Origin: Thermoanaerobaculia bacterium
Lineage (GTDB): Bacteria > Acidobacteriota > Thermoanaerobaculia > UBA5066
Length of the DNA: 46,709 nt
NCBI GenBank assembly: GCA_022071945.1
Contig: JAJVIN010000066.1
Location: forward strand, 1 to 46,709
Reading direction: 5' to 3'
The notes below the pieces were generated by a model, which had not been told where the DNA came from, did not search any database, and worked only from the letters and a program-made list of their open reading frames with translations. The position numbers and the translations under genes were made by a program. Positions 21,331-27,515 of the stretch are shown here, one piece after another (within the stretch, counting starts at the first letter, position 1; every line of letters begins with the position of its first letter).

Positions 21331-21436
21331 ATCCGGCCGGCAACCCCTCGAGTGTCACGGCTCTCCGCAAGGCCGAAGGAGCACGGACAGAGGGCCAGAA
21401 CCGCGCGGGATTCGCGAGTCTGCGAGACTCGTCCCG

Positions 21437-22618
21437 ATGGAAGTCCCACCAGAAGCCTCGGTGCGCCCGCGGGAGGGGGATCTCAGGGAGCTGGCTCTCC
21501 TCTTCTTGAAGCTCGGGACGACGGCCTTTGGCGGGCCAGCCGCTCACATCGCTCTCATGCAGGACGAGGTCGTGAGACGGAGAGCCTGGCTCACGGATGC
21601 GGAGTATCTGGACCTGATCAGCGCCGCCAACCTGATCCCGGGACCGAACTCCACCGAGGTGGCGATTCACATCGGATGGAAGAGAGCCCGCTGGAAGGGC
21701 CTTTTCGTCGCGGGGTCCGCCTTCATCCTGCCGGCCGTCCTGATCACAATGGGTCTTGCGTCTGTCTACGTGCGGTTCGGAACCCTCCCTCAGGCGGGCT
21801 GGCTGCTCTACGGTGTCAAACCCGTCATCCTCGCGGTGGTCGTCCATGCGCTCCTTGGCCTCGTCCCGAAGGCGGCGCCGAGCTGGGGCCTGCGGGGACT
21901 CGGTGTCGCGGCGATCGCGGCGAACGCCCTCGGCACACACGAACTCCTCGTTCTCTTCGGAGCCGGGTTCCTTCTCGCCCTCTTTCGAGGCGTCTCGAAT
22001 GGGGGCAGGGCCGGCGTCTTCGGACCTCTGGCCCTGCTCTTTCCGATCGCCGGGACTGCCTCGGGCGCGAGCGCGGCCTCTGCCTCCGGGATTTTCTGGG
22101 TCTTCTGCAAGACGGGAGCGGTTCTTTACGGGAGCGGCTACGTCCTGTTCGCGTTCTTGAAGGCGGACCTCGTCACGCGGCTGGGCTGGATGACGGAAGC
22201 CCAGCTCATCGATGCGATCGCTGCCGGACACATGACGCCGGGCCCTCTCTCCTCGAGCGCCACTTTCATCGGATACCTGCTCGCGGGTCCGTGGGGAGCC
22301 GCCGCCGCGACGGCCGGAATCTTCCTCCCCGCGTTCTTCTTCGTCGCGATCTCGGGCCCCCTGGTCCCCCGGCTCCGCGCCTCGCCCCTGGCTGGCGCGT
22401 TTCTGGATGGCGTGAACGTCGCCTCGATGGCTCTGATGGCCGTCGTGACGGCTCAGCTTGCACGAGCCGCCATCCTCGATCTTCCGACCGCCGTTCTCGG
22501 AGTCGCAAGCGCTGCGATTCTCCTTCGGTTCCGCCCGAACGCCACGTGGCTCATCCTGGGCGGCGCCGTTGCCGGGGCAATCGTCCATGGGGCGCGCCTC
22601 GTGGGCTGGGGAGCCTGA
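21437..22618 (+). CDS. chrA: Chromate transporter, long-chain ChrA type
   Basis: 393 residues with two homologous halves, each of six or so membrane helices. The first half has FGGPAAHIALM and LIPGPNSTEVAIHIG, the second has YGSGYVLFAFL and MTPGPLSSSATFIGYLLAG; the paired PGP motifs define the CHR family. Fused halves make it a long-chain ChrA that exports chromate, probably driven by the proton gradient. Some members may move other oxyanions. No ChrB regulator is adjacent. The RBS is weak before the ATG at 21437, and the frame is open upstream, so the start is not firm. It converges on the cytochrome bd-like pair with a 22-nt gap. Confidence 0.88.
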   Translation: MEVPPEASVRPREGDLRELALLFLKLGTTAFGGPAAHIALMQDEVVRRRAWLTDAEYLDLISAANLIPGPNSTEVAIHIGWKRARWKGLFVAGSAFILPAVLITMGLASVYVRFGTLPQAGWLLYGVKPVILAVVVHALLGLVPKAAPSWGLRGLGVAAIAANALGTHELLVLFGAGFLLALFRGVSNGGRAGVFGPLALLFPIAGTASGASAASASGIFWVFCKTGAVLYGSGYVLFAFLKADLVTRLGWMTEAQLIDAIAAGHMTPGPLSSSATFIGYLLAGPWGAAAATAGIFLPAFFFVAISGPLVPRLRASPLAGAFLDGVNVASMALMAVVTAQLARAAILDLPTAVLGVASAAILLRFRPNATWLILGGAVAGAIVHGARLVGWGA

Positions 22619-22640: not shown

Positions 22641-23741
22641 CTACGCGACGGGCTCGCCCTCTGGCGGACGGTCTTTGACGGACCGGACCACGGCGCAGAT
22701 CGTGAGGCCGAGACAGAGGGCGAAGGTGAGGGCGAAGAGGAGGAACCCTCCCCATTCGGCACGGCTCTGGACGGGGTCGGCCGCCTTGGCGGCCTCGTGG
22801 TAGAGATTGCGAAGCTGGTGGCGCATCCCCACCATGACGATCATCGTGGCGCCGAAGAACTCGAGCGCGTTTCGAACGCGCTTCGGGTTGGCCATCGGGT
22901 CTTGCGCGGCCACCAGAAAGGCGAGCAGGCCAAAGCTCAGGATGATGCTGAGGAGGAGCGGGAGCACCTCGAGAACTCCTTGCCGCATCCACAGCCGCAG
23001 GACTTGCCGGGGCATGGCCCCGAGGAGCCAGAGACCGTCCGCGATCTGGAAGAGGGTCGCGACGAGCGCGACTCGCATCCCGAACGCCGCCCGGGCCTTC
23101 AACGCCAGGGGATCGAGCCCCTTCTCGGGCCTGCGGACGGAAATCCAGGCCAGGAGAATGCCCGCGAAGATCAAGGCGGCCAGGACGAAGTGGAGGAAGC
23201 GGGCGCGGAACTCCCCGTACCGGAAGGCCGCCATCGGGTCCGTCGCGACCGAGGTCCAGAGCTCCGGACGCAGGTGCAACAAGTTCACCGCCACCTGGAT
23301 CGCCGTGACGCCCAGAAAGAGGAGCGCGGACCCCCAGACGGCAAGCGCGGCTCCCTTGCCCGCCGCGAACCGGAACTTGGCGATGTAGTTCAGGTAGTAG
23401 GCAGCGGCCATCATGAGGAGCATCCCCAGCCAGATCCACGGTAGGAGCGCGCTCGCGGTGTAGAAGAACCTGCCATAGAGGAGCTGAACGAAGAGCAGGG
23501 GCGCCACGCCGAACGTGATCGCGAGCGAGATCGCCCACGAATTCAACTCGACAAAGAGCTCGGCGACTTTCCAGCCGCGACCGGAAACGAGTGTGCTCAG
23601 TCCACCCAGGAGCGAGCCGCCAACGACGGAATTCACGAAGACGAGGTGGAGAAAGAAAGTCAGGAGCCACAGAGCGTGAACGACGGCCGGAGCGCCAGGA
23701 ACGGGGAAGACGCTTTCGGCCGGGACGGTTTCAACGGGCAT
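22641..23741 (-). CDS. CydA'-like membrane partner subunit of a bd-type reductase
   Basis: 366 residues, about nine predicted membrane helices and no Cys-x2-Cys-His motif. The segments LTFFLHLVFVNSVVGG and LAITFGVAPLLFVQLLYGRFFYTAS resemble the first helices of cytochrome bd subunit I, as expected of a CydA paralogue (CydA') that replaces CydB in some bd-superfamily enzymes. It overlaps the end of the heme-c-bearing CydA-like gene by 11 nt, with AGAGG 6 nt before the ATG; a GTG at 23744 is an alternative start. The pair probably forms one inner-membrane complex. Assignment rests on recalled family patterns, not a search. Confidence 0.65.
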   Translation of the reverse strand: MPVETVPAESVFPVPGAPAVVHALWLLTFFLHLVFVNSVVGGSLLGGLSTLVSGRGWKVAELFVELNSWAISLAITFGVAPLLFVQLLYGRFFYTASALLPWIWLGMLLMMAAAYYLNYIAKFRFAAGKGAALAVWGSALLFLGVTAIQVAVNLLHLRPELWTSVATDPMAAFRYGEFRARFLHFVLAALIFAGILLAWISVRRPEKGLDPLALKARAAFGMRVALVATLFQIADGLWLLGAMPRQVLRLWMRQGVLEVLPLLLSIILSFGLLAFLVAAQDPMANPKRVRNALEFFGATMIVMVGMRHQLRNLYHEAAKAADPVQSRAEWGGFLLFALTFALCLGLTICAVVRSVKDRPPEGEPVA

Positions 23742-25089
23742 CACGCACCTCTTGCAGCGACACGAGGTACTGGGCCAGGGCGTCCTGCTCGGAATCGGTT
23801 CCGACGAAGGGCGGCATCAGCGGATAGTCGAGGGGAGCCTCTTCACCCTTCAGAAGCTTCTTTCGGCCCTCGCCGTCCCCCTTCATCAGTGTGAGGATCA
23901 TGTTCAGGGTCTCGGTGTCGGCCCCTTTCGTCAGCTTCCGAATGCCGAGGTAGCCGTCTATCGTGTGACAGGCCGCGCACTGGGAGCGAAAAACGGCCCG
24001 GCCCGTGGCCGCCGCTTCTGTCGCCGAGGGGCTGGCCCTGCCGGTCTCCAGCCGGGCGAACCGGGACTTCTCGAGAATCCCTCGCTGGTTGATCGAGTCG
24101 ATCTCCCGGGCATGGAGTCCATTCGAGAAGACGTGGGGACGGACGACATAGGGTTTGCGAGAACCCTCGCGGACTCTCTCGTAGCCTCCCAGGACGGCGA
24201 ACCCGGCCAGAAGGGAAACGACGGCCGCCGGCCAGGCTTGGAACCTCGGGGCAAGGAGGGCCAAAAGAGCGAGCGCGAGGCAGAGAAGACCGGCCATCAT
24301 CATCTGGTTTCGTGTTGCGGAAAGCCCGGGCAGGAGGGGCTTTGGACCGAGGAAAACGAGACGCATCGCGGGCTCGAGCGCGTTCTCCCACCAGAAGTAG
24401 CCCGCCGCGGCCAGAGCGGCGCCCATCGACTCGAAAGCCGCCAGAAACCTGACGAGCCTCGCCCTTCCCGCTGGGTCCTTTTCGGCGAGGACCGCGAGCA
24501 TCAGATAGGCCCCCGCCAGGAGCAGGCAGACGCCGCTTCTCAGGACGAGCCCAGGCAGGTAGGTGGGGTTGAAGAAGGCGTCCGCCACATCACCCGTCCG
24601 GGGCCAGGCGCCCGGCGTCGACATGAAGGAGAGGATCCCCTGGATGATGACGAGGGACATGTAGGCCGAGAAGGCATACAGCCCGATCAAGAGGAGGTGG
24701 GTTCTCGGGGAGACCTTCTCCCACGTCGAGTAATAGAGGAGGGCGGTCACGATCTCCAGCAGGAAGAACGCCCACTCGATGGCCCACACCCAGACGAAGA
24801 GCCGGATCAGATCGGCCGTTCCGGCGGGCTGGACGACACCGATCGTGAACCAGATGCCTACGCCCGAGATGGCCCCGAAGACGGTCGAGACGAGGATCAG
24901 GATTCTCGAGCCTCTCCTGGCTGCGTTTCTGAACACGGGGTCCCGGCCGTTCTTGATGGAGAGGGACTCGAGGGCGAAAAGGACGATGCCGCCGCCGACC
25001 GCGAAGTGAGAGACGACGACGTGCAGGATCGAGATGACGGCGATCAGGATTCCGCCTCCGATCGCCGGGGTGAAGAGCGGATAGTCCAT
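23731..25089 (-). CDS. CydA-like cytochrome bd-superfamily subunit fused to a C-terminal cytochrome c
   Basis: 452 residues. The N-terminal 305 form eight or nine helices with CydA-like features: His23 and His28 in helix 1, E105 and E112 in AIEWAFFLLEIVT, and KVSPRTHLL followed by QGILSFMSTPG. A cytochrome c domain follows (about 355-452) with CAACH (371-375) and a probable Met ligand in LMPPFVGTD. The long quinol-binding loop of true CydA appears absent. This matches the heme-c-carrying branch of the bd oxygen-reductase superfamily, in which cytochrome c or another carrier rather than quinol may be the donor. It is translated just before its CydA'-like partner. I see no RBS before the ATG at 25089, so the start is uncertain. 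Confidence 0.72.
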   Translation of the reverse strand: MDYPLFTPAIGGGILIAVISILHVVVSHFAVGGGIVLFALESLSIKNGRDPVFRNAARRGSRILILVSTVFGAISGVGIWFTIGVVQPAGTADLIRLFVWVWAIEWAFFLLEIVTALLYYSTWEKVSPRTHLLLIGLYAFSAYMSLVIIQGILSFMSTPGAWPRTGDVADAFFNPTYLPGLVLRSGVCLLLAGAYLMLAVLAEKDPAGRARLVRFLAAFESMGAALAAAGYFWWENALEPAMRLVFLGPKPLLPGLSATRNQMMMAGLLCLALALLALLAPRFQAWPAAVVSLLAGFAVLGGYERVREGSRKPYVVRPHVFSNGLHAREIDSINQRGILEKSRFARLETGRASPSATEAAATGRAVFRSQCAACHTIDGYLGIRKLTKGADTETLNMILTLMKGDGEGRKKLLKGEEAPLDYPLMPPFVGTDSEQDALAQYLVSLQEVRDAR

Positions 25090-25881: not shown

Positions 25882-27321
25882 TTACTTCAAACCCAGCTCT
25901 GCCAGGATCTTCGGATCGGCCTCGTCCTGGGCGAGGATCGTGTGGCAGGCGTCGCAGTCCTGGCTGATCGTCAGTCCGTCCTTGGTGGCGTGATTGCCGC
26001 CGTGACAGCGGAAGCAGCCGGGGAAATCCTCGTGGCCGAGGTTGTTCGGGTGTGTTCCCCACCGCACGCGCATGAAGGGGAAGACGTTGTGCGAGTAGAT
26101 GGTCTGGATCTCGCGTATGGCCTGTTGCAGCTCGGCACTCTTCGTGCGGGCGAAGTCTGGGTAGGTCTTCTGGTAGTAGTCGCGAAGGGCCGTGGCGATC
26201 CTCTCTTCTCCGCCCGGACGGTCGTCGTTCTCGGTCTTGAGGATCTCGACGGCCTTCTTGCGGATGAAGGGAATCTCCAGGGAAATGCGGCCCTCCGCCA
26301 TCGCCTTGTCCACGGCCCGTTCGGGCAGCTGGAAGGCGTGGGAAGGCCGGTTGTGACAGTCGATGCAGTCCATGGACCGGGTCTCGGGGGTGAATCCGGG
26401 TTCGGGTTTCGCGGCATTCGGATCGACGTACTCCACGGTCTTCCCCGCGTCGTCGACGTAAATCACCTTCGCGATCGACTGGCGCTTCTTGTCGGTCGAC
26501 ACGTAGGTGATGCGGGACTTCACATCCAGATGCCGGCCGTGGATTCCCTGCAGGCCCTTCCAGCTCTTGCCGCCGATCTTCATGACGAGAACCGTCGTCA
26601 TCGGGGTGTTCTTTTCGTCGTCGGCGAACTTCTTCTTGACGATGAACCGGTCCCCGGTGAACTTGTGAGGCCAGTGGCACTGTTCACAGGTTTCCCGGGC
26701 CGGGACGAGGGTGAGGACCGGCGACGGCACGGGCCTCTCGTAGTTGTTGAGCGTGACCGCGACGACCTGCCTGAGACCGTCGACCTTCGCCTTGACGAAC
26801 CACGAGGCCCCGGGGCCGATGTGGCAGCGGACACAGGCGACGCGCGAGTGGGGGGAATCCTGGTAGGCGGTGTACTCGGGAGTCATGACCCCGTGGCAGG
26901 CCTCGCCGCAGAAGCTCTGCGTGTCCATGTACTCCATCCCCTTGTACGAGGAGGTGCCCACGATCGCCACGTTCAGAAAGGTCAGCCCGAGGAAAAGGAG
27001 CCCTGCCTTCTGGAGCATCGGGTCCCTGAGAGAGACATCGGGGAGCGTGGCCGGGATCTCGCCCGCCTTCTTCAGCTTCCTTCTCCTCAGGATGATGCCG
27101 AGCGGCATCAAGGCCAGGCCCGCGATGAAGATCCCCGGCAGGATGAGAAAGAAGAAGATCCCGGTGTACGGGTTGATCTGGTGGTGAGCGAGCATTTCGT
27201 AGAGCCAGAACGCGACCAGGAGGACGCCGCCCGCCGTCGTTAACCCGGCCCCGAGAATGGTGATCGGGTTGTTTCCAAAGAAGAAGAAGTAACGGAACCT
27301 CGAGGACAGGAACCCAACCAT
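25882..27321 (-). CDS. NapC/NirT-type membrane-anchored multiheme cytochrome c (six heme sites)
   Basis: 479 residues. Three N-terminal membrane helices (about 18-42, 54-78, 106-124) precede a periplasmic domain with six heme-binding motifs. The first is CGEACH (138-143), with three residues between the cysteines. Five are ordinary CxxCH: CVRCH 163, CEQCH 212, CIDCH 319, CFRCH 436 and CDACH 456. NapC/NirT proteins oxidise menaquinol and feed periplasmic reductases, but canonical ones have four hemes and one helix; the extra helices and hemes resemble quinol-linked cytochromes of metal- or nitrogen-reducing bacteria. The start at 27321 (MVGFLSS) has GGAG about 10 nt upstream. With the bd-like pair it forms a respiratory block. 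Confidence 0.85.
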   Translation of the reverse strand: MVGFLSSRFRYFFFFGNNPITILGAGLTTAGGVLLVAFWLYEMLAHHQINPYTGIFFFLILPGIFIAGLALMPLGIILRRRKLKKAGEIPATLPDVSLRDPMLQKAGLLFLGLTFLNVAIVGTSSYKGMEYMDTQSFCGEACHGVMTPEYTAYQDSPHSRVACVRCHIGPGASWFVKAKVDGLRQVVAVTLNNYERPVPSPVLTLVPARETCEQCHWPHKFTGDRFIVKKKFADDEKNTPMTTVLVMKIGGKSWKGLQGIHGRHLDVKSRITYVSTDKKRQSIAKVIYVDDAGKTVEYVDPNAAKPEPGFTPETRSMDCIDCHNRPSHAFQLPERAVDKAMAEGRISLEIPFIRKKAVEILKTENDDRPGGEERIATALRDYYQKTYPDFARTKSAELQQAIREIQTIYSHNVFPFMRVRWGTHPNNLGHEDFPGCFRCHGGNHATKDGLTISQDCDACHTILAQDEADPKILAELGLK

Positions 27322-27515
27322 TCTCGGCTCTCCTCGGATCCGGGGGCCTGTTTCCGGGCCGAGCCCGGACGACGCGCAGCCCCCAGTCGCGACGGTAGTA
27401 TGGGGGACGTCCCGAGGCTTGAAAAGCCGTCCCGCCTGGAGGGCCACGGCTCGAGCCCGCCCCATCGCAGAGACTGCGGCGGGCCTCTGGTATCTTTGGG
27501 GCGAGGAGGGATTCC

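Follow-up and report, generated by a model that had tools for sequence, protein, structure and literature searches.

Within the cytochrome bd superfamily, qOR enzymes have been studied in depth, unlike those of the OR-C branch. The archaeal CydAA' (qOR4a) is a quinol-using enzyme built from two CydA paralogs. OR-C we take to be defined by a heme c attached at the CydA C terminus. The family was reportedly named by Murali, Gennis and Hemp 2021 (ISME J, doi 10.1038/s41396-021-01019-4). The names qOR, OR-C and OR-N are used in PMC13189123, and PMC10839748 distinguishes three bd families and describes an OR-N CydAA' that likely has cytochrome c as its donor. OR-N is placed in Nitrospirales (PMC12342949), the bd-like oxidases of Nitrospira cluster with a Rieske/cytochrome b complex (PMC6606698), profiles for OR-C and OR-N are published (PMC11707229) and acidobacterial oxidases are treated (PMC8407424); PMC7618691 also belongs to the related literature. 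No report of the purification or characterisation of an OR-C enzyme was found in the literature searched. The original prediction had called bd-type enzymes of this kind barely characterised, which is fair, although the family already has a name.

The window, the whole stretch of 46,709 nucleotides that was analysed, encodes a CydA-like protein with a C-terminal cytochrome c (CydA) and a partner (CydA'), and both genes lie where they had been predicted, with overlapping frames (Table 1). The frame of CydA' overlaps the cydA stop, sharing 11-14 bases with the cydA frame, and begins at GTG 23744 or, more likely, at ATG 23741. A gene for a chromate-transporter family protein converges on cydA'. 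The pair is a genuine bd-superfamily enzyme, conserved and of a kind already known though little studied; it is best filed as OR-C type, a placement made by features and not by the tree. Judged from sequences and predicted structures, it would be a CydAA' membrane oxygen reductase of the OR-C type that is fed from the periplasmic side by cytochrome c and not by quinol, a reading to which we give a probability of about two in three.

Table 1 Coordinates in the window of the genes, domains and residues discussed.
Feature	Position	Strand	Remarks
cydA-like gene with C-terminal cytochrome c	23731..25089	-	452 aa; start ATG 25089, stop 23731-23733; PF01654 and PF00034; pLDDT 93 model
H23 of CydA	25021..25023	-	E. 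coli H19, di-heme site ligand; by alignment
E105 and E112 of CydA	24754..24777	-	E. coli E99 and E107; by alignment
R184 of CydA	24538..24540	-	at the position of b558 ligand H186 or one residue off
E308 of CydA	24166..24168	-	E. coli E445; by alignment
Cytochrome c domain of CydA, residues 357-448	23746..24021	-	PF00034 at 360-445; aligned to cytochrome c6 at 355-449
CAACH heme c attachment motif (C371, C374, H375)	23965..23979	-	residues 371-375
cydA'-like partner gene	22641..23744	-	366-367 aa, stop 22641; profile match to CydA family; pLDDT 90.8 model
H32 of CydA' (ATG numbering)	23646..23648	-	at E. coli H19 position; 66/66
H184 of CydA'	23190..23192	-	at E. coli H186 (b558) position; 66/66
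M303 of CydA'	22833..22835	-	candidate second axial ligand; 63/66
Six-heme cytochrome	25882-27465	-	NapC/NirT-like domain, membrane protein; five CxxCH and one CxxxCH
Chromate-transporter family gene	21344-22615	+	PF02417

CydA belongs to the bd superfamily by both profile and fold. Residues 16-202 match Cyt_bd_oxida_I (Pfam PF01654; E 7.1e-14; 51.6 bits against a cut-off of 26.2), and the predicted structure (pLDDT 93.0) has the fold of bd subunit I (Z 33.5, rmsd 3.7, 326 residues aligned to 7oy2_C). One genome per species was scanned, which yielded 422 CydA relatives, and the best 80 of them were retained; the CydA alignment consists of 71 rows, from 70 of these 80 loci and the window, with near-duplicate and truncated rows dropped. 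H23, E105, E112 and E308, the counterparts of the superfamily's di-heme ligands (E. coli H19, E99, E107 and E445), are invariant in all 71 rows and align with H21, E101, E108 and E378 of Geobacillus, which we take to be heme-ligand positions. Arginine occupies position 184 in every row (71/71); one alignment pairs this residue with Geobacillus H186, and in another it is its neighbour that falls at the H186 position. Among the 30 cytochrome c-bearing CydA rows of the superfamily alignment, none has a histidine at the H186 position, the M393 column is not conserved, and the columns of the quinol-loop residues K252 and E257 (E. coli) are gaps throughout (30/30). The b558 ligands and the quinol loop that mark qOR are both missing from CydA, in which the predicted di-heme oxygen site is preserved and the quinol site lost. 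The prediction of a CydA-like protein with no quinol loop is borne out; as for the axial heme ligands, whose loss would have counted against it, those of the di-heme site stand while b558 ligand H186 has gone from CydA.

The cytochrome c predicted at the C terminus of CydA is seen both as the CAACH motif and as a Pfam match (Cytochrom_C, E 1.7e-6), which is the OR-C hallmark of a heme c at this position. The three residues of the motif listed in Table 1 are kept in all 71 CydA rows, as is M425, the candidate distal methionine of heme c. At least one CxxCH motif occurs in each of the best 80 loci of the 422, and two occur in many.

CydA' matched no family in Pfam. In profile-profile comparison its family matched the CydA family (E 8e-13), against E 0.36 for E. 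coli CydB, and its predicted structure aligned with Geobacillus CydA (5doq_A; Z 29.4, rmsd 3.5, 340 residues aligned). In a Foldseek search, ten CydA chains (E 7e-5 to 6e-3) ranked above all CydB chains (best 9e-3). Because of these profile values and this fold ranking, the partner is assigned as a CydA paralog, a second CydA-like subunit as the original prediction had it. CydB, the partner expected in a qOR, is ruled out. Cytochrome c oxidase subunit 2 was the only solved structure matched by the CydA' profile, at E 0.12-0.14; these matches were taken as chance and heme-copper subunit II was rejected as an identity for CydA'.

The CydA' alignment has 66 rows (65 of 76 loci from the best 80 of 422 relatives, and the window), and none of them has a glutamate at the columns of E99, E107 or E445. 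CydA' therefore has no active-site carboxylates, yet its histidines are invariant at two heme-ligand positions (H32 and H184). With H186 gone from CydA and H184 invariant in CydA', the b558-type histidine is found in the second subunit and not in the first. Its absence from CydA and presence in the partner would also suit a pair that is no enzyme, acting as an electron relay or as a heme-storage membrane protein. We consider this very unlikely, given that H23, E105, E112 and E308 are invariant across at least ten phyla (by the record titles of the best 80 of 422 relatives).

The pair is a widespread relative of cytochrome bd. By record titles, the best 80 relatives include Acidobacteriota, Eisenbacteria, Zixibacteria, Ignavibacteria, Calditrichota, Armatimonadota, Bacillota and others. 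In 76 of these 80 loci cydA' lies directly downstream of cydA, which argues that the pairing is not due to chance; the four loci with no adjacent cydA' (L046, L049, L077 and L088) all reach contig ends. Of the 247 genomes examined from the window's phylum, CydA is matched in 54 (E <= 1e-30) and CydA' in 61 (E <= 0.001). All 54 CydA genomes also match CydA', as do seven of the 193 others, five of these seven matches being weak (E above 1e-5). The common neighbours of the stand-alone loci are, by eye, mostly housekeeping-like, with no shared redox gene neighbourhood among them.

In a maximum-likelihood tree of 62 proteins, made with a quick method and with long branches flagged, all cytochrome c-bearing CydA form one group (SH-aLRT 98) separate from the quinol oxidases (99), and CydA' forms another (100). 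The bd superfamily, to which both proteins had been predicted to belong and to which the PF01654 match assigns CydA, is thereby supported. Neither fold nor sequence search found a solved structure of the cytochrome c-bearing CydA/CydA' family. A long CydA-like type of 630-775 aa (L144, L145, L146, L147 and L155) has a clade of its own in the same tree (SH-aLRT 100); it keeps the H19, E107 and H186 positions but has a tyrosine in place of E99 and lacks the quinol-loop residues.

A donor on the cytochrome c side is most strongly supported by an operon found in relatives, not in the window itself. In at least eight of the 54 CydA genomes (L193, L194, L195, L196, L200, L203, L206 and L207) the gene order is cydA', Rieske, cytochrome b, cydA-cytochrome c. 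PF00355 confirmed the Rieske protein in two scanned operons, and PF00033 did so for cytochrome b in two; the remaining bc-linked operons were identified with profiles built from four of the eight. The listed stretches contain no separate CxxCH frame of at least 120 aa, and since only the CydA domain carries CxxCH, it is the natural acceptor for the Rieske protein. The arrangement points to complex III as a putative donor and to heme c as the entry point. The predicted donor, cytochrome c, is thus supported by these operons and by the features of CydA, and the OR-N sister family has been read in a similar way in published work, which is a further reason for this reading, as is the clustering of Nitrospira bd-like oxidases with a Rieske/cytochrome b complex. 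No literature report of a Rieske-linked OR-C operon was found, and the paper that defined OR-C may describe one. Four bc-linked loci (L148, L150, L151 and L154) seemed to have CydA with no CydA', but in longer stretches CydA' lies upstream of the Rieske gene. In L194 (= L150) the next genes after the bc-linked cydA are those for a FUR-family regulator and a ferritin-family protein. L191, L201 and L219, which are close in the tree to the bc-linked L203, have the reversed cydA'-cydA order with no bc genes, perhaps an operon that lost, or never gained, them.

Under the preferred reading, complex III, of either the bc or the alternative type, would reduce the attached heme c, directly or via a soluble cytochrome c, and heme c would then reduce the di-heme site of CydA, where O2 would be reduced to water. 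The pair thus probably reduces oxygen with cytochrome c as the electron source; we infer both the substrate and the donor. CydA' would hold one b-type heme via H184, probably together with M303, and this heme might be an extra electron carrier or a structural one.

The case for a heme in CydA' comes from 139 CydA' rows (loci L023-L102 and L163-L226, the window's own included); these rows do not stand for as many independent genomes, since four genes or more occur twice. In the 133 rows with letters at both positions, H184 and M303 are both present in 119 and both absent in 12; two have the histidine only and none the methionine only. Being kept or lost together, the two residues are possible heme b ligands and may be an axial His/Met pair, the simplest reading of their covariation. 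The covariation is suggestive, with too few independent losses for significance: with both columns blanked, the best tree requires three losses of H184, and a single one if starred branches alone count. M303 was rejected as a strict counterpart of E. coli M393: M393 precedes the E445 helix, whereas M303 is some five residues away from the position of E445 and, if a ligand, would come from a different helix.

Both residues are lost in seven of the eight bc-linked CydA', L203 retaining both, and they are also lost outside bc operons (L211, L214 and L216-L218). In two genomes of the set L216-L218, L224 and L225, CydA' and CydA are encoded on separate contigs, and the third genome of this set was matched for CydA' only; CydA' of this unlinked variant has neither H184 nor M303. 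The joint loss in bc-linked operons would fit a stand-alone enzyme that still oxidises quinol, through a new quinol site in CydA' and the H184/M303 heme b to the heme c of CydA, with the bc complex taking over this job in bc-linked operons so that the CydA' ligands were lost. The persistence of the CydA/CydA' pair in genomes with neither cytochrome b nor NrfD matches would fit as well. We judge this unlikely, since no quinol-site residue is identifiable, L203 keeps both residues in a bc-linked setting, some CydA' outside bc operons also have neither, and the few losses carry no significance. A more elaborate proposal, which also seems improbable to us, is that electrons enter through a heme b in CydA', a subunit that was exchanged in evolution with a Rieske/cytochrome b complex. 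Electrons would pass from quinol through CydA' to the heme c of CydA in the stand-alone form, and in the bc-linked form CydA' would be heme-less and the CydA domain would be the cytochrome c1 of a complex III-bd supercomplex.

The gene content of the window's genome speaks for the preferred reading. It has one bd-type protein, three COX1-family matches, three cytochrome b matches and seven NrfD-family matches; two of the last share contigs with COX1 matches, from which an alternative complex III is inferred, and the genome thus apparently has both this and a bc complex. Cytochrome b is found in 39 of the 54 CydA genomes, and 13 of the 15 that lack it have an NrfD match; 12 of 16 further genomes from outside the phylum sample also have cytochrome b. 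In the remaining two genomes (90% and 97% complete), which have the CydA pair and neither a cytochrome b nor an NrfD match, electrons are unlikely to come from complex III and another donor is likely, so that no one donor is established across the whole family. A COX1-family protein occurs in 48 of the 54, and CydAA' thus need not be the main oxidase.

FUR-family genes lie near nine, and ferritin-family genes near six, of the best 80 loci of 422, which is one reason why oxygen is preferred as the substrate. The same neighbours, and the presence of other heme-copper proteins in most host genomes, could instead suggest a bd-like enzyme that, still with cytochrome c as donor, reduces nitric oxide or hydrogen peroxide or serves mainly in oxygen detoxification. 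The full set of oxygen-site residues is invariant and the linkage to Rieske and cytochrome b genes suggests an energy-conserving chain, and we therefore find a different substrate or a detoxifying role doubtful. The six-heme cytochrome near the pair had been proposed to supply its electrons. This did not hold up: the gene is outside the operon, an oppositely oriented isochorismatase-family gene separates it from cydA, and a homolog was found in none of the 80 related loci (best 80 of 422; tblastn E <= 1e-5). It was rejected as a linked donor, though it could act in trans.

The preferred reading, oxygen reduction with electrons from the cytochrome c side, offers as predictions the heme c entry point, a complex III donor in some lineages and the two heme-holding residues of CydA'. 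If it is true, bd-type enzymes go beyond quinol oxidation, in bc-linked forms the cytochrome c belonging to complex III is part of the O2 reductase itself, and for many uncultured Acidobacteriota and their relatives both energy yield and oxygen affinity need rethinking.

Compared with canonical CydAB of E. coli and Geobacillus, the pair has the CydA fold and the di-heme ligands in common and differs in having no quinol loop, H186 or M393, in the replacement of CydB by CydA' and in the added cytochrome c. As in the archaeal CydAA' (qOR4a), two CydA paralogs are combined, but unlike qOR4a the CydA of the pair shows no quinol-site residues, so that the quinol binding typical of qOR4a is not recognisable. 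The OR-N CydAA' of Nitrospira and Nitrospinota is likewise a pair of CydA paralogs with a proposed cytochrome c donor, and in Nitrospira it lies near a Rieske/cytochrome b complex, like the bc-linked relatives of the pair; it differs in the location of heme c, which is within CydA here, whereas Nitrospira OR-N has separate cytochrome c genes nearby. With OR-C the pair shares a CydA that has no quinol site and bears an attached heme c.
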